Source: Chondrosia reniformis (Eukaryota > Porifera > Demospongiae > Chondrillida > Chondrillidae). From it: a stretch of DNA of 64,000 nucleotides. Positions 14,401-63,900 of this stretch are shown here, in pieces (the stretch's first letter is position 1; every line of letters begins with the position of its first letter). The position numbers and the translations under genes are program-made. The notes under the pieces were generated by a model that ran no database searches, was not told the DNA's origin, and worked only from the letters and a program-made list of their open reading frames with translations. The stretch is taken from the NCBI GenBank assembly GCA_947172415.1, contig OX359191.1, positions 6,758,001-6,822,000 of the forward strand. The letters are read 5' to 3'.

Positions 14401-17400
14401 ATTATATTACTGAGATTGAGGCTTCATTCACACATTTCTCTGAGATTCTGATGTATTATAAAGCATACAGTATATAAATATATTATATTACTGAGATTGA
14501 GGCTTCATTCACACATTTCTCTGAGGTTCTGATGTATTATAAAGCATACAGTATATAAATATATTATATTACTGAGATTGAGGCTTCATTCACACATTTC
14601 TCTGAGGTTCTGATGTATTATAAAGCATACAGTATATAAATATATTATATTACTGAGATTGAGGCTTCATTCACACATTTCTCTGAGGTTCTGATGTATT
14701 ATAAAGCCTACAGTATAAACTCTAGATCATAAGCGAAGGATGAAGTTTCACTTCTCCCTTCTTTTCCTCCACTGAACCTGTATGTATGAAAAGACTCCTG
14801 TATCTTTATCCAAAGCTCTCTCCAGGTTTAATTCCCTATAGACTTTTTTACAGAATACTGGGAATAGCATGTAGGAAAATGGTGTATTAGATTTTTCATG
14901 TATGTGCATGGCCCTTAATTCTGTATATGAGGACCTTATATATATACTGAGCCTGTATGTACGTATGTACGTATGTATGGTCCTTAATTCTGTATATGAG
15001 GACCTTAGTGTGTATATATCATATGCTTTTAGGACTTTGTGTCTGAAGGGGGATAACCCTGCTGTTAAAGATGTAGAATGTCTAAATTGTTGGAATGCTA
15101 TTTATGCTGTGGGTGCAGGTAGACATTATATAGCCAGAGTACAAGGCCAGCCCATTAATACAGTAAGCTCACTATATATACTGTATGTATTTATTCTATA
15201 TATACAGTCCTAGGATTATTGATTATTCAATCATTTACATTACTATATACTTATAATAGTATGTTACAATATATAACATATACTGGGTCATATTATATGT
15301 ACAGTTGAATCCTAAGTACTTGTGTGTATCAGTGTTGTACATGGCAATAATTGACTTCATTTCTCATTTCTTCAAAGGGAATATTTATTGATGAAACTTA
15401 TGACATCGGTCGAATTGAAGATGTTCACTTCAATCCATGGTATTTACGTACGGTAGTTTGCTAGATATAATAGTATGATCATTATGAATAATAATAAATA
15501 ATGCAAAGTATGTATATTATACAGTATATGAAGAATCTATTTTTATCATCATATATATTGCATTGATACCTACTCAGTCATCCAGCCAAAGGATAACTTA
15601 AATAATAGTTCTTGTAAAATATAAAACGCTTCTTGTGTTGTTCTCTACCAAAGGTTCTCTAACAAGAAAGAATTCTTAAGTTGGCAACTAACCCATGGAC
15701 GATCTTTTGTGTTTGCTCGCTCCGATTGGGAGTATGTCTTCAACACGTTCTCCTTTGGCTATGCCATTGGTTATCATTTCATAGAGTCCAAAACAGGAGC
15801 ATGCAATGGAAACTTCCTTGGAATTGGAGCAGACATGGCTGTATGTATTGAAATGCTCTACTTTTATTCAATAAAGTAATGTATTCTATGTATACGTATT
15901 TGTATGAATTGTACTAAAAATGCTGTTATTATATATGTATACCAATGACTATCAACTAAGCAGTATAGACATGGCACGCTATCAGTTTAGCACTACCCTG
16001 GTGATTGGCACTTGTGAAATTACTGACAAAAAGTTTGTCGTACAAGTTACGTAACTGTTTTTGACATGACACATATAAGAGTTCTACTAAATATCTAATT
16101 TACATACATAATCACTAATTCTAGTGTGCAAGTGGTGTCCTATCAATATCTGAAACCACAAGTGTTGTCTCTGAATTGTTGGACATTAATCACTTGATTA
16201 AAGGACTAGCCTTCATAACCTTTATGTTAATGTTTCCTGAATCTGCTGTAGTTTTTGTCCCCACTTCTAATTTAGGAAAGTAGGAATAGGAAAGAAATGG
16301 AATGGATGATATTCTAATACAAGTACACACTAATAGAATAAGGATTTCTTCTAACTGCGTTGAACTTATCTTTTGAAAGGATCATCTTTTGACTTTTTAG
16401 AGCGTCTAAAGACGCAGTTTTGTTGTCTCTTCTTTGTTGTCAGACGTTTCAACCCCGAGGGTCTTCTTCAGTCACATCCTTTCAAAAGCTAAGTACACAC
16501 ATATGTTAGATACTAAAGATTGATTGTAAATCAGAAACCTTAAATTTTGTGGCAAAAGAGTGTTGCAATTAATTCTGATACATTTTACAGGTGAATGCAT
16601 CAGTACAGATTGATGCTAGTCAGAAGATGGGCATTTTGATAACCAATGGTGAATTCACGTCATTCCTTAATCCAGCTTATGGATCTAATGTAAGTTCTAA
16701 ATAAAATAGTTACATCATTATTAGAGTTGATTTCTATATGCCTTTAAGCGTTTCCACCAATAAATAACAGTCAATACAAGGGAGTGTAGCCTTCTATCCC
16801 AATGAAATACTTTATTAATGTGGTGAGCAAAGTATACTACAACAGTGAACAAAGTGTACTAAATATTGATCACTGCAAATGCAGTTTTAGCTATGTCTAG
16901 AAATCTTCAGGTTATGATAAAGAAGGGGTTATCACTGAACTAAACTGATTACTGATTGATTACTAACTGATTACTAACTGATTTACAATTATATGTATGA
17001 TGTTTGTATGACGTTTGTAATTACAGGTCTCCCTGGTAGACCAGCTGTGAGCTGAAGGGACATTCCTGAGTAAAAATAATAATTATAATAATAATCACTG
17101 GAGGTGTTATGCCAAAGGGTCTTTTTGGCTGGGGGACCGAAGTCTTGTTAATGGCAACCAGTGATTACCTTCAAATCATCCAAGAGCCACAGACAGCTGT
17201 TTCACCCAGCTTTGGGCTCATCAGTGTGGCATACTTTGGTGGTGAATTTAGATGACTGCCTTCAACTTGTTAATCCTTCACTAGTGAAACACTTGCGGTT
17301 TTCCTAAGAAGCAGTGGTGGGGGGCTACAGTCTGAGGCTGACCTCCCAACCCATACTGTGGTAAAGGGGGTTAATAACACTTGGTCTGTATAAAGGTTAT

Positions 17401-20400
17401 GATGATGAAGTTAATTATCAGTGGAATAATAACTTCCAGTGATAATTTACTGTACATACACTAACTTATCTTTTGAAAGGATCATCTTTCGACTTTTAGA
17501 GCGTCTAAAGACGCAGTTTTGTTGTCTCTCTTGATTGTCTCCTTTCAAAAGATAAGTTCTACGCAGTTAGAAGAAATCCCTATTCTAGCATCTTGTGTTA
17601 ACCACTAAAGAAGGAGAAGCAGCAGGTATGTGTCTACCCAGGCTGTGACTAAAGTTTCCCTTCAACTTGTGAAGCTAATTTAGCTGACTCAGACAGATAT
17701 CTTTCCTTTCTTGTATGCTGAAGTAGTTAGGAGTGTTCCTGTAGGTAGCTATAGCTAGAGGGAGGGAAGAAGTTGTTAGGTGGTCCTTGCTGTGTGTCTC
17801 TTGGGAGAGTTATCTTTGCTGGGGTGTATAGAGCTCTGTTGATCCAGATCAATTGCTCAGGTAGTGTAAGATAGTTATTTTTGATTTTCAAAAATCAAGA
17901 AACATTCTACTTTTACCTTCTTAACATTTGGTTCTTCTGCAGCTGCACTTTTGTAAAAGTATAGCTACAGAAAAAGTAAAAGTAAATTACCAACCCACCC
18001 TATCATAGTCCTACTCACCTTGCCACCTGGCCTAGTGAAGATATGATAGTTGCCAAAGTTTTATTTCTCACAAGATGATTTTGACCTTCCATATTGACTT
18101 GATCTAGGTTCACTTAACTCTGAAATAACGTGCTAGTACAACTGTGATGGATGTGAATACTGACCAAGCAATACAGAGTAGTCCAGACGTTCCCTTATAT
18201 AGAAGAGTCCTGATATGGATTACACTGCATATGAACAGCCATGATTAGCTGTTTATATTCACGCTTACAGTTGTGTTCAAATTTAATTGAAATATTGGAA
18301 TGGAATTGAAACACTATAGTTTAGGTGCATAGTCTAATAATACCTATGTGTATGGTTTTAGGAATACCATTTAATCAAATACCATTGTATACGTCCATTC
18401 ATACATGGTATACAGAAGAATACATGGGGCTTACAAAATACATGGGTTATACTAATGCAAGCATTCTACATTTGTGCTTCAATTCAACTAAATTTTTGTT
18501 CAGACATATGTATATATTTATATGACATCAGTTTGATTTGCAGCAATGTATGAGTAGATACGCAGTTTCTTATGAATAATCATTTTCATATAGGTATGGT
18601 TGACATCCAATATACGAGATTATGGAAATACAGATATAGAATAGATTTTACTCCAAGACTTACTATTTAGGAAAAAAAACTATAAAACTTTGAATAGAGA
18701 TATAGTTATATAGTTTTCCTCCTATTGCCATTAGGCCAGACAACTGTTTCTGGGAATTTCATCCTTCATCAGTGAGCCTGGAAATCTTTATCTTCATGTG
18801 TACGTATATCCTCAGGTCCTTTTTATGTACATGTATTACTATTCCTCCTTCAGGCTCCTTTAGACTGATGCGTTTGGATTAGTGTACTAGGTCCTTTTAA
18901 CTCTAAATGTTCCTTTATGTTGCTTACTTGTAGTAATTTCCCTCCAACATGCAAATTAATAACTTCCACCCAGATGGATTGTGATCTCAAATTATCCCAT
19001 TGGATGTGGTGTTTGGCTCCAGGCATCAGAATACAGTGAACTCGTACATTTATACCAACAAATGGATATTATTTAATGCATTACTTGTTTGTACCATAAA
19101 ATGTGAAAAGATACATAAGGATTATGGATCAAACATCAGTTATTGAAACAATGGTAGGGGAATAACCTACATAAGTATTATTCATAAGTATGGATGTAGA
19201 TATGGATGGCTGTGCATAACTGTGACGTAACCTACTGTATATATTGTGTGTATTAATACTTTTGACCTTAAGTGACCACCGTATCTCTTGTGGAAGCATA
19301 CTAAGGGAAAGAACTTGGATGGTTTTCTAAGTGATTTTGTGACCCGAAATAATTGAAAGGATTAACTGCCTGTAAGCCTACAGTACCAAAATCTCTACTA
19401 AATAGTGCCCTAGTTTTAGCAGCTGCAACTTGAGTTAATTATGTGCTATTGAACTGGGTCCCCTTTGAGGATAGCCATTGGTGGTTTAGTATCAGCTGAC
19501 AGACTGCTACTCTTAGAATACTGTCTGTCTGCAAACTCTGAGTGGCTGACCTATGTGAATCTCTATGTTTTCTCTTTTCTCTCCATATACCTGGATAAAG
19601 TCTCATTATTAGATTAAGCGCTACAGTATAGTGTATTTAAAGTATATATACAGTTAGTGAGTGTTGATATATAGTGGTGGAGTGAATATTCACTTACACA
19701 GTCACTGCACAAATTACCCTTTTCAAAATGTGACACTAATTTGAAATAATAAAGTTAAACTTAGAGACTCTTGCAATTCATATTTAGTATGTGTAATTAA
19801 AGGAATTATTTAAATTGTATCCATAATAGAGTTTCAATACTGTGGAATGGTCTAACGAGTGCTAATTTAATCAAATAGTTTATCACTTTAAGACAATGGG
19901 TTTGTAGTCAATCAGGAATCAAGTTAGTAACTGTTCCTATTTTCAGTCCTTGTGAATGGAGCAACAGATGATGCATCTCCTTTGGGAACACATGTTTTGT
20001 CTGATTATTTTGATAAATATTCACCAATCCTGTCCAGCACCTGTGGTCCATTTGCTTCCATATACGTATATGCATGTATGTATACATTATTACATATGTA
20101 TATATACATGTACTTACGTAGCATGTAGATACATATGTACAGATATATGCTATAGCCAACATTTTTTTCAGTAGCATTACTACATACATTACTATAGGCC
20201 AGTAATTCTATTGTGTACTTTAATTGTTTATATGCTTCATCAGCTATTTCAAATTATACCTGTTGCTATTGTCTTGTTGGGAAATTCTTCAGTGTAAAGT
20301 GATATATTGCTTTTCACTTAGTTCCACAATACTGAATAGATATTGTAAATGTTTTTATAGCCATTCAGGTCTTTAGGTCTTCGTTGTATGTATATCAATT

Positions 20401-21351: not shown

Positions 21352-23706
21352 AAACTATTTCTATTTAGACTCAATAGCTATATTATATGGCATTGTATGC
21401 ATATACTGTATGCAACTCCAAATATGACAAGCATTTATATGCAGTGAACTTTATGTTTTTTCATAACCGTACTAAACATTAGAAGCTCTTGCTATTCAAA
21501 AGAACATGCAAATGGTTTAAAATTTAAAGGACTCTACGTTTATTTATAGAATTGCCTTTAGTACTGAAGTGAATAATGAGTATACAGTATATTACATTTT
21601 AAATTTGGTTCTTTTTAAGAGAGACTTTGACACTTCCAATATACAGACAGAAACTGCTGCAGGTTGGCTTAAGGTTCAGTGTATATGTGGACATACAGTA
21701 TATACATATATAACATTTAGTGCCCTGAATGTGATTTCATCATATATATATTGCAGGCTAACAATCAGAATATGGATATCTTGATACCAGTAATGATGAA
21801 CTTGTATACATCATTTCTTCAACAGGTACTTTTGCATAAATAGGTTATATGTAACTGATTTGAATGCAATGCTTTACAAATTCCAGAATAGTCAGGTAAG
21901 TATCAGTAACAATATTTGTTACTCTCATACCGTATATCAGGAATTGAATGCAAGAGTAAAAGATTGCAATTTGTCCAAATTACGGGTACAAGCTAAACAT
22001 TGTGCATGGTTAAAAGAATGCAAGATAAAGCTAAGGTGTACGGGGACGTGTATACGGAATTACTGAGGTATCATGTCAAAAGATTGCACACACACAGTCA
22101 AAACTCGTAATCTCGCATTCGCATTCAATTCCTGATATACGGTATATAGGTTGCTGATCAAGATCTACAGTATCTTATTTGACAATAAACAGTTTACAGA
22201 ACATTTAACTTATAGGAAACCTACAGCTGCTGATTAATGTGAGGTGTATGTTATATACCTACATTGACATGTTGCCCTAATGCTGTATTGTATATATACA
22301 TACATATTTCTGTATGGTGATTGCTCCTATGTGGAATATATATATATGTACATGGATACATATGTGTACATGCAGTAAGATAAATATGGGCCTCACCAAT
22401 ACAATTTTTACATACATATTTCTTTTCCAATGTTATATTCTCAATGTATACAACAAACAACCCTGGGAGGTCTATCATTAATTTCTTTAGAATAAATGTA
22501 CGTACATACATTAGCACATTATGATGGCATATGCATTTTTTGTCAAATAGTGGCTGCTCCCATGTGTTTACAGATCTATTTGTATGCTAAAGGTCATGAG
22601 AGCATTTCCTAGAACCTGGACCTGTTTACATAATCAAGACCAAATATTACTTTTGTGTTAGTCCCTATTAACTCCATAAGGGCTTGTAATATCAGGTATT
22701 TTTAACATAAGGAAATACTGTATTGACATAGGCTGCCCCTTGACATTAATGTTTGTTTATCTAATTAATTTACTGCACATATGATAACTAATGGTCAGAC
22801 ATGCAGGCTACAGGAGTGTTATCTATTATGCATGTCTAAGTCCCCCAAGTGTAAGTGTGATCTGTTGATAATTGAATAACAAATCCATCATTCCATCTTT
22901 CTTGAACATCTGTAGACAGAGTTTCAGTTGAATCTTTTTGTCGTATGTTTGACCCTGGAGGTCTTCTTCAGCAACTATGTCTTTAGATGCTCAAAGGAGT
23001 GAAAGATAAAACCTTTCAAACAATACAGATATATAGAAAAAAAACTTGCCTTATCATATCTTGATTCATCTTGCTTATATCTGTAAATACAATAGTTTTT
23101 TTATTAATAAATTAGTAGATCATAATTCAAAGGTCAATTATTGATATAATTGTCAACAAGAATGGTTGGGATGATGTAAGCCCCATATTCAGGAGTGTTT
23201 CTTCACACACCCACAAATGTTCAGATATTGCAATTGAATTGGGGAGGGTCACTCGTAATATTGTCATTATTGGGAATGTATTCTCCTTCCATCCATCCTT
23301 AATTAACTGCATATTCAAAAGCTTAAAACGTACTACATTTTCTTTGACTGAGTAATGACGTTTTGTCTATGTTAATTGCCATATTAATAGAGTATAATAG
23401 CTCACGAAGGTTATTATTAATGATATTCATTGGAACAATGATGCACATAAATAGATTCATTATTATAAAGTAATAATATTCATTAATAGGTGAGCTCTTA
23501 AGTAGTGTATATATCCAGCTGGGATGAAGTATTGAGTGATTGACAGCAGTCACAGAATAAGGATTAACCTGAAAGGTCCAAAAGTCCATATTCAGAAGAA
23601 CTACTAGGATCCTGTTGTATTTTGGATTTGAATTCTGCAACTGTTTAATAGTAAAGAAGTAAAATATTCTTGTAACGAAATCACTCTCTCTGAAGTAATA
23701 TATAAG
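21352..23706. other. Intergenic spacer
   Basis: AT-rich, with many TATACGTA-type palindromes and one MITE-like element (21927-22145). A fragment TTTGACCCTGGAGGTCTTCT near 22948 belongs to the GGTCTTC repeat family. I found no supported gene. Confidence 0.5.
21927..22145. mobile_element. MITE-like element with ~25-bp terminal inverted repeats
   Basis: The left end ATACCGTATATCAGGAATTG and right end CAATTCCTGATATACGGTAT are near-perfect inverted repeats that extend through GAATGC. Length is ~219 bp, without coding capacity. The end sequence differs from the 13078 element, so it is a separate family. Confidence 0.75.
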
Positions 23707-60988: not shown

Positions 60989-63900
60989 TCAAATCCTATG
61001 TATGTAAATCTTTTGAAGGTCAGGGAAGAGGGCATTTCCCTCCTGCAGTGGAGCACCCAAAATGGCTGCCTTAGGAGAGGTATGTCTTTCCACTATACTC
61101 ATCTTCAATGACTGCTCATCTATAGAGGACAAGTAGCTAAATACTTCAGGTATTGTTCTTCTTTCATGATGTTCCGGATTCCTATATATAGTAAATGTGA
61201 AAAACATTCTTCATCCAAAGCTCTATAGGTTTTCCCTAAGTAGTAAGTCTAGGAAAAGAGTCTATTTGTATTCTTCCTCATAGTACATGATGTCAACCAT
61301 ATGCATGTCTATAGGAAAATGGTGTTTATAACATACCTGGGACAAATGTACTTCAACTATAGCGTACATACATATATGTGTATACATTATTAAGTGATTC
61401 ACACTCACCAGCACTGAACCATGATCCTGTAGATCTTCTTAGGACAACCTGGCGGAGGAGGCTGACAGTAGCCAGTTGGTAGTAACTCTATCACCTGTAT
61501 ATGTATACATATATGAATCAATGAGTCATTTTGTATATGGTGCATATTAAATATACGTATGTACAGTACAAATATTGCAATGTAATTCTTATATGAGGCC
61601 TTGGGTTGTGTAAACAAAATATGCACATGCACAGTAAAGAATTTATTATATACACATACAAAACACATTTTTTAATATATGATTATTTCTCTGAAAACAT
61701 TCCATTACCTAAAATGTATAAAATTTACACTTGCTGAAAAATTGCTAAGGCATTCATTATTTGTATTTATATATACCTTGTCAATGTTAAACTCTTCAAA
61801 TGGTTTATGTCCGAGTGACCATATCTCAAACATCACCATTCCAAAGCTCCACACATCACTCTTTGTAGTGTACTTGCCATACAAGATGGCCTCTGGAGCT
61901 GTCCATTTGACTGGAATCTGACCTCCCTTGGGCTTGTAGTAGTAGTCCTTATCCATGTCATGTGACATACCAAAGTCAGCAAGCTAATGAAAAAACATGA
62001 TATATAGATTATTGTTTAATTAATGTATGGTACATGTGATAATTAGTGTGTTTAATATAGTTTCAGATTGTATATAGTAATTAGTTATAATACATATAGT
62101 CTGTTTACCTTGCAGTTCAAGTTCTCGTCAAGGAGAATGTTTCGAGCTGCAATATCTCTATGTATAAACATCTTCTTAGAAAGGTACGACATTGCATCAG
62201 CTATTTCAACACAAAACTTTAAAAGGAGTCTACTGTTGTGCTTGTTATCTCTCTCCTGAAATCTATCATGAATGCGTAGAAAAACGTATGAAGTACTTAA
62301 TATATAAAGAAAATCTGAGAGTCAAATGATGGCGGCATTTATATAGTCAAAGTTTTAATATAATCGCCTTTAGATCTTAAAGTTCTCATAGAAGATCGTG
62401 TACATTAGATTATATATACGTATATATACGTATATACATGTAAATGTATTATTTTACTATTTGGAGAACTTACTGGTCTGACGCTTTAAGAAGATAATTT
62501 CTCAGATCACCATTACTTGCTAGTTCCATTGCAATGAAAATCTGTAAACATAATATTATGTTGTTGTATATATAATTAAGTTCTTTATAACTACATAATA
62601 TGTATACGTATACTATATGAGTAGTTTTACTGCTAATCTATTAACAAGTTGATATTTCATGAAGTGAAATATCAATTTTCATATATATTCTTGCATATAT
62701 ACCTGTCATATACACAGTTGTTTTACTATATACTATGTACACACAGTACCTTGTCATCGTCCATGGCAACACCAACGAGTCTGACTATATTGGGATGGTT
62801 AAACTGTCCTATTATGGCAGCTTCCTTCAGTAGTTTGATCTTCTCATCTTCACTTGCACCTTCTCTCAACCTCTTGACTGCCACTATCTTCCCATTCTTC
62901 ACTCTTCCCTTGTACACTTCTCCAAACTGCCCCTCCCCCAGCTGGTGGGAGAGCTCTAGATTTCTAATGTCTAGTTCATTGAATTCCTTTCTTTTGTTAA
63001 TGTGAGTGTATAATTCTTCAGCATTACCAGAGGGCTCCCTGTAATATTTCTCCGGATCCAGAACACTATACATCTTGATAGCCAGGGAAATGAAGATATA
63101 ATTTCTAAGACTTAATCACAATATACGTATAGTGAATAGTTAATAGAATAAAGATTTCTTCTAACTGCATTGAACTTATCACTTATCTTTTGAAAGGATC
63201 ATCTTTCGACTTTTAGAGCGTCTAAAGATGCAGTTTTGTTGTCTCTTCTTGGTTGTCAGATGTTTCGACCCCGAGGGTCTTCTTCAGTCAGCTCTAAAAG
63301 TCGAAAGATAATCCTTTCAAAAGATAGTGATTAGTTATTGTGTTCCTGTAGCAGCATATACGTATACTGCTATGAGAAGCTAGCTCTATATAAGTAAGTA
63401 ATCCCCGTCATCACGACAACATATTGAACCTTTTAATTAGTCTGTCAATATATAATTTGCACTATATATATGTGCATCTATATACAATTAACTGAAGATC
63501 GATATCATGGAGGGCTTGCAGGATTGATTATTCTGTAAAATGCACAGTTCCTATGACATTGACTGTAGTTTCAGAAAATAGTCATGCATAACAATTGCAT
63601 TGTATCACCAAGACATCATATTTTCATTAAATAACATGTGTATATATATGCACATTTATATATACTCACATGACTTTCAGGTTCAATAGTCTGTTGCAGT
63701 ATTTCATGGTGATTTGATTTACCCTGCTGTTATGAAAACACACGACTGAACCAAAATTTCATATATCTAAATATGTACTCTAAAAGACATAACAATAATC
63801 AAGTGCATGCTGCCTAACTGAGGTACTGTACCAGTATACATAATTACATACAATATTATACATCCTATGTATATACAATATGTTTTGGTACCACAAACTA

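Follow-up and report, generated by a model that had tools for sequence, protein, structure and literature searches.

The window, by which we mean the whole 64-kb stretch of DNA analysed here, carries a type I hammerhead ribozyme on its minus strand (Table 1). Read from 17229 to 17187, this strand is CCACA-CUGAUGA-GCCC-AAAGCU-GGGU-GAAA-CAGCUG-UC-UGUGG, with all core letters in order, a stem I of at least 5 bp and a stem II of 4 bp closed by a G-U pair. The sequence-only reading that had pointed to this motif described core and stems correctly. It was also right that stem III is short, but with 2 bp and an AGCU tetraloop this is not the truly minimal form of Penelope-like elements (PLEs). A strict scan for type I hammerheads, requiring the full core, a 2-bp stem III and no fewer than 5 bp in stem I and 4 bp in stem II, returns this site alone from the window; 300 dinucleotide shuffles yield no match. 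The Rfam covariance search proposed earlier finds no family at gathering over the window, HH9 giving the hammerhead 16.4 bits against a cut-off of 52, and the local fold of the surrounding 81 nt is only slightly more stable than expected from shuffles (z -1.78), 8 of 200 of which fold as well. Silence of Rfam at its thresholds and a fold with a slight advantage over shuffles are what a chance hammerhead-like sequence could also produce. Such an origin has practically no probability, however, given the empty shuffles and the copies of the motif elsewhere in the genome (see below), which refute it. A covariance model built from 16 of the other copies, with the window copy excluded, scores the latter at 73.7 bits (E 2.6e-15); when it is one of 20 copies used to build the model, the score is 87.9 bits. 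The closing G-U of stem II is found in 6 of the 20 aligned copies, the window copy among them. Covariation among these 20 is not above shuffles because the copies are too alike. At the level of sequence the hammerhead is thus confirmed, with cleavage predicted between 17192 and 17191, and its action as a dimer is possible.

The hammerhead resides in a worn copy of a small mobile element, as had been supposed; flanked, dispersed monomer copies of the same element occur in the genome. The bounds of the block earlier proposed for it, 17028-17405, were slightly off: alignment gives ~17075-17446, including a short inverted arm joined head to head with the main arm. The outer end of the main arm (~17070-17078) is worn, approximate and placed by eye. 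Despite this wear, the 12 core letters of the ribozyme are intact. The one sign that the hammerhead may lie in an intron is an exon-like open frame upstream of the element (84 aa, 15625-15879, plus strand), in which no Pfam domain was found. Three mini-elements derived from PLEs also lie in the window, one of them adjoining the element. An older PLE-like hammerhead remnant (CUGAAGAAGACCUCCAGGGUCAAACAUACGAC) is seen at 22971 on the minus strand.

Table 1. Features of the hammerhead element and of the PLE-derived mini-elements in the 64-kb window.
Feature	Position	Strand	Basis
Type I hammerhead core	17187..17229	-	Core motif, strict scan and family model; 12/12 core letters as in young monomer
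Hammerhead with extended stem I (GCCACA/UGUGGC, internal loop, outer helix)	17175..17250	-	R1 model match 17175-17250 (model includes window copy); R2 model match 17175-17247 (model excludes window copy)
Main arm of worn retrozyme copy, about one monomer	17075..17433	-	Aligned with monomers A and B; BLAST match at 71.5% identity
Worn, short second arm of this insertion, inverted (head to head) relative to main arm	17422..17446	+	Weak local alignment, score 38.5-42
PLE-derived mini-element adjoining the retrozyme; ends unequal, one short, one long (tail); lacks a hammerhead core	17465..17587	+	Mini-element end comparison
PLE-derived mini-element with long left and short right end; minimal hammerhead CUGAAGA...GAAACGUC at 16471	16331..16490	-	Flanking repeat AAGTACACAC
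PLE-derived mini-element, minimal hammerhead-like core at 63287 (slightly altered form of GAAACGUC), long end left, short end right	63140..63325	-	Mini-element end comparison

We searched the genome of the kidney sponge Chondrosia reniformis (117.38 Mb in 15 contigs), the assembly of which is listed as odChoReni1.1 (PMC12181767). A 17,451-base contig with mitochondrial genes is open under genetic code 4 (also 5, 9 and 13), not under code 1. The 33-nt family motif, with up to three mismatches, is present at 227 places of the whole genome (106 and 121 on the two strands) and at none with the reversed control. Monomers of 359-364 nt are arranged singly, in tandem or head to head. In one tandem array five cleavage sites follow each other at 359-nt spacing, and other arrays have spacings of 363 and 364 nt, so that both the further copies and the tandem dimers expected by the sequence-only reading exist. 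Two reference monomers have a GC content of 0.456 and 0.429, below 50%. The circular folds predicted for monomers are more stable than those of 100 shuffles each (MFE z -5.3 and -6.1), and the reverse complement is predicted to fold as well as the sense strand. Eight old copies keep 93 of 95 core letters; over the 43-nt hammerhead they keep 316 of 342 letters versus 1894 of 2146 in the rest, a modest difference (p 0.026). One retrozyme dimer, at L005, is inserted in a possible coding sequence (left flank, C5:3589373) which, by eye, we take to be DIRS-type.

By the features tested, namely hammerhead, tandem units, GC content, duplications and predicted fold, the family fits the metazoan non-LTR retrozymes. 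The latter are reported from cnidarians (coral), mussel and axolotl (PMC7229834), and in that account they share with the sponge family a type I hammerhead, units of 170-400 nt, tandem copies, a GC content below 50%, a highly self-paired RNA (predicted here), duplications of more than 4 bp and PLEs in the same genome. Two fixed 3' ends and head-to-head pairs, which we describe below, are not among the features given there for these retrozymes of another phylum. The axolotl hammerhead repeat, although from a vertebrate, is similar in its short stem III with a small loop and in its length of ~330-350 nt; the form of stem III found in the sponge, 2 bp and a tetraloop, is the one described there for an axolotl family as 'similar to invertebrate HHRs' (PMC7229834). 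Ribozyme form and repeat length are also the grounds on which we liken the satellite hammerheads of newt and axolotl to the retrozyme. Plant LTR retrozymes, as presented in PMC4918200 and PMC7761336, are likewise non-coding, carry a hammerhead and form circular RNA in plants, but they differ in having a type III hammerhead, LTR, PBS and PPT and 4-bp duplications. Tandem arrays would equally be expected of plain satellite DNA with a hammerhead in it, for which unequal exchange or movement as DNA would suffice and no reverse transcription would be needed. Strongly against this very improbable origin are the dispersal of copies over many contigs, their fixed 3' ends combined with variable 5' ends, and the repeats that flank them. 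Nor can the retrozyme itself be an autonomous PLE, because monomers of 359-364 nt cannot hold an ORF for reverse transcriptase and GIY-YIG endonuclease.

The main result concerns the ends of the insertions. We read 36 retrozyme insertions, 26 of which are head to head, all with their 3' ends outward. The outer ends cluster at two positions along the monomer, ~44 nt apart: site S, 152-161 from the ribozyme cut (...GCTTATCA, position 156 of monomer A), and site L, 192-205 from the cut (...CCCTTTTTTCA, position 200 of monomer A). These are BLAST ends and therefore scattered, and one S end at 170 was corrected by hand. Between S and L lies a hairpin (TTGCAC...GTGCAA) with a largely constant stem and a variable loop. 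In all 21 head-to-head insertions with both ends at these sites, one end is at S and the other at L, for which free choice gives a probability of at most 0.5^21 = 4.8e-7. The second arm of L021, an 11-letter piece, was assigned by eye and the boundary of L013 by hand; without both, the count is 19 of 19. By script, flanking repeats of at least 9 bp (9-15 bp) are present in 18 of the 21 insertions, or in 19 after correction of the L013 boundary, compared with 17 of 930 mismatched left-right pairs from the 31 insertions given to the script.

The counts rest on the following choices. Retrozyme loci were taken from the best matches (30 loci and four further stretches) and from the 227-place motif scan (six loci); four of these six were picked for close opposite-strand copies, and the share of head-to-head insertions is accordingly not unbiased. 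L081 is a single insertion interrupted by other sequence and was counted once; worn fragments in L039 (two) and L042 (one) were left out of the tally of insertions. Ten of the 36 insertions were dropped from the site count as not clearly head to head. Another five, of the 26 head-to-head ones, were left out: the window copy, the ends of which are too worn to assign to S or L, L007a (truncated by the locus edge), L014 (left match stopping at 124, judged worn), L036 and L027. In L036 one end is near position 326, neither S nor L. One arm of L027 (1959-2001) ends at the hammerhead cut, again neither S nor L, as would be expected had copying begun at the 3' terminus of a linear RNA after cleavage.

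Inner ends lie within 15 nt of each other in 4 of the 21 insertions and more than 15 nt apart in the other 17; since they rarely coincide, the two arms resemble independent cDNAs more than a single hairpin formed by self-priming. Arms of at least 751 nt also occur, and because these exceed one monomer and cross the ribozyme cut, their template was either circular or an uncut multimer.

The same genome harbours PLEs, with GIY-YIG domains above the Pfam cut-off at no fewer than 38 genomic places (150 of 382 candidates scored). In two of the elements an ORF (743 aa in L075, 713 aa in L076) combines an RVT_1 with a GIY-YIG domain, and a minimal hammerhead follows directly after the stop codon. The GIY-YIG domain of L076 reaches 22.5 bits, just below the 22.6 cut-off, which its 98.6% identical relative L075 exceeds. 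In the autonomous L076 the ends are unequal, a short and a long one differing by 37 nt, and a 13-letter repeat flanks the element. PLE mini-elements, such as the three in the window, are 77-81% identical to the region of L075 and L076 after the stop codon and are abundant, with at least 57 matches (40 scored of 1204 candidates). The loci L060-L073 were picked for close opposite-strand copies, which again biases the share of head-to-head ones. Among mini-elements with both ends read, 19 of 20 have one short and one long end, the exception being L067 with two short ends; outside this count are L045, of which a single end could be read, L047 and L050, which duplicate L071 and L060, and two unclassified copies in L059. 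Repeats of at least 8 bp are found at 9 of 21 junctions of mini-elements and L076 versus 11 of 420 mismatched pairs, a signal weaker than that of the retrozyme.

Several further relationships between these repeats were noticed. At L076:3234-3288 the PLE lies inside a small retrozyme insertion, and retrozyme and PLE nest in each other. The resulting match of L076 to the retrozyme (87% over 55 nt) was rejected as a trace of shared ancestry. L059, considered as a possible PLE, was also rejected, as it has no open frame of at least 80 aa that appears PLE-like by eye. A second type of PLE, which is presumably Naiad-like, is found at L077:2159-4000, with a permuted arrangement: the GIY-YIG-like stretch is near the start of the ORF, and several tandem repeats of 250 bp precede it. 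A third hammerhead-like family is represented in the window at 18724-18795 (minus strand) and also at L008, L009, L015, L025, L039, L048 and L052-L058. Most of the 40 matches scored (of 463 candidates) retain ~67 nt at ~84-94% between diverged flanks, and no head-to-head pairs are found among these 40. The core letters are present and the end, GAAACAGCUGUC, is like that of the retrozyme, but the basal pair of stem II is replaced by an A.A mismatch. In L008 and L009 retrozymes are inserted into repeats of this third family, near the same motif.

Retrozymes and PLEs of the sponge also share a habitat. A 13-bp satellite, (TACTAGTTGTATG)n, occupies 189,164 places within three mismatches of two units, which corresponds to at least 2.1% of the genome. 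Among the matches listed, perfect places are mostly at 2.2-4.8 Mb of each large contig, and matches are also listed near 6.0 Mb on C2 and at 7.0-7.2 Mb on C3; perhaps the satellite is pericentromeric. Ten of 35 retrozyme insertions are within the satellite, versus 1 of 426 chunks of the window and 0 of 144 other chunks, and PLE ends, like retrozymes, often sit in it. The shared habitat counts as weak support for a connection, because the satellite is this abundant and may be a refuge of low recombination.

The tail signature is also present in published PLEs. The PLE protein of the anole, PAc, cuts and extends both target strands, and begins cDNA synthesis at two neighbouring internal sites; the interval bounded by these forms a tail, present in part of the genomic copies (PMC11167929). 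In the description given there, the start site is alike for both strands taken as a whole, not pair by pair. Rotifer Penelope is reported to form head-to-head copies with a 31-bp tail optionally at one inverted pLTR and with duplications of 8-10 bp (PMC3846280), versus 9-15 bp in the retrozyme. As far as described in these two sources, both PLEs thus resemble the sponge family in two start sites 30-40 nt apart, a one-sided tail and head-to-head pieces. The retrozyme differs from PLEs in lacking a coding region and in the form of its hammerhead, which has a looped stem III of 2 bp. Nor does homology link its start region to the sponge PLE tails sampled: none resembling it was found in L084-L089, L075-L077 and L059, a small part of the 38 GIY-YIG places.

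We consider it highly probable that the element in the window is an old retrozyme copy, and that retrozyme RNA is inserted by machinery of the PLE type, primed at two sites. The most likely mobiliser is PLE machinery, the identity of the enzyme being what we infer from the common end anatomy. In this account the hammerhead would divide the transcripts of tandem copies into units of 359-364 nt, which would be joined into circles. The circle, or an uncut multimer, would then serve as template for a Penelope-like reverse transcriptase with GIY-YIG endonuclease, an enzyme which, judging from PLE biochemistry, would cut both target strands. One target end would prime cDNA synthesis ~156 nt past the ribozyme cut and the other ~44 nt further on. 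The two cDNAs would run variable lengths round the template and meet head to head between target duplications of 9-15 bp, which is the anatomy of the insertions. Copying of only one strand would leave a single or tandem 5'-truncated copy.

Two other routes to head-to-head insertions have to be weighed. The retrozyme might be mobilised by a LINE-type reverse transcriptase and not by a PLE enzyme, the head-to-head arrangement arising through twin priming as in L1. LINEs also make target duplications of 9-15 bp. Twin priming, however, fixes one outer end only, and in the sponge each of the two outer ends has a fixed position of its own; an identical end anatomy is, moreover, seen in PLE copies from this genome. 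We therefore regard this route as improbable, even though the 15-bp duplications in Nematostella repeats were likened to those of LINEs in the 2016 study (PMC4918200). A second route, to which we give a slightly better though still small chance, leaves the element a PLE-mobilised retrozyme and lets one cDNA prime itself on an antisense template. It is favoured in the rotifer study, where it was proposed for PLEs from palindromes at the junctions (PMC3846280), and the nearly coinciding inner ends of four sponge insertions would agree with it. On the other side, the inner ends of the remaining 17 are too far apart, the one-of-each pattern is not predicted by it, and extension by the PLE protein of the anole proceeds on both target strands (PMC11167929).

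With priming of both target strands by PLE machinery as the preferred reading, a more general rule suggests itself, which we favour by a small degree. The one-of-each pattern would be an insertion rule of PLEs, the two target strands being primed at two neighbouring sites, probably by the two halves of a reverse transcriptase dimer on one RNA. Small circular ribozyme RNAs would take advantage of this complex through a pair of sites of their own around a hairpin. Already in sponges, retrozymes would then parasitise PLEs by means of circular RNA, in the way that SINEs depend on LINEs.

In animals, retrozymes are a source of abundant circular RNAs. As mobilisers of metazoan retrozymes, LINEs or PLEs have been named, with PLEs as a strong candidate (PMC7229834), and according to a review the retrozyme repeats have no conserved motif that points to the mobiliser (PMC7761336). 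The paired S and L ends represent such a mark of the mobilising enzyme. A one-sided tail as such is already known for PLEs, since rotifer Penelope shows an optional one (PMC3846280); new here are its strict one-of-each form and its presence in a retrozyme. No paper combining retrozyme and Porifera was found in the part of the literature covered by our search, and the family described here would place retrozymes in this phylum. The S/L mark can be checked in the genomes of coral, mussel and axolotl.
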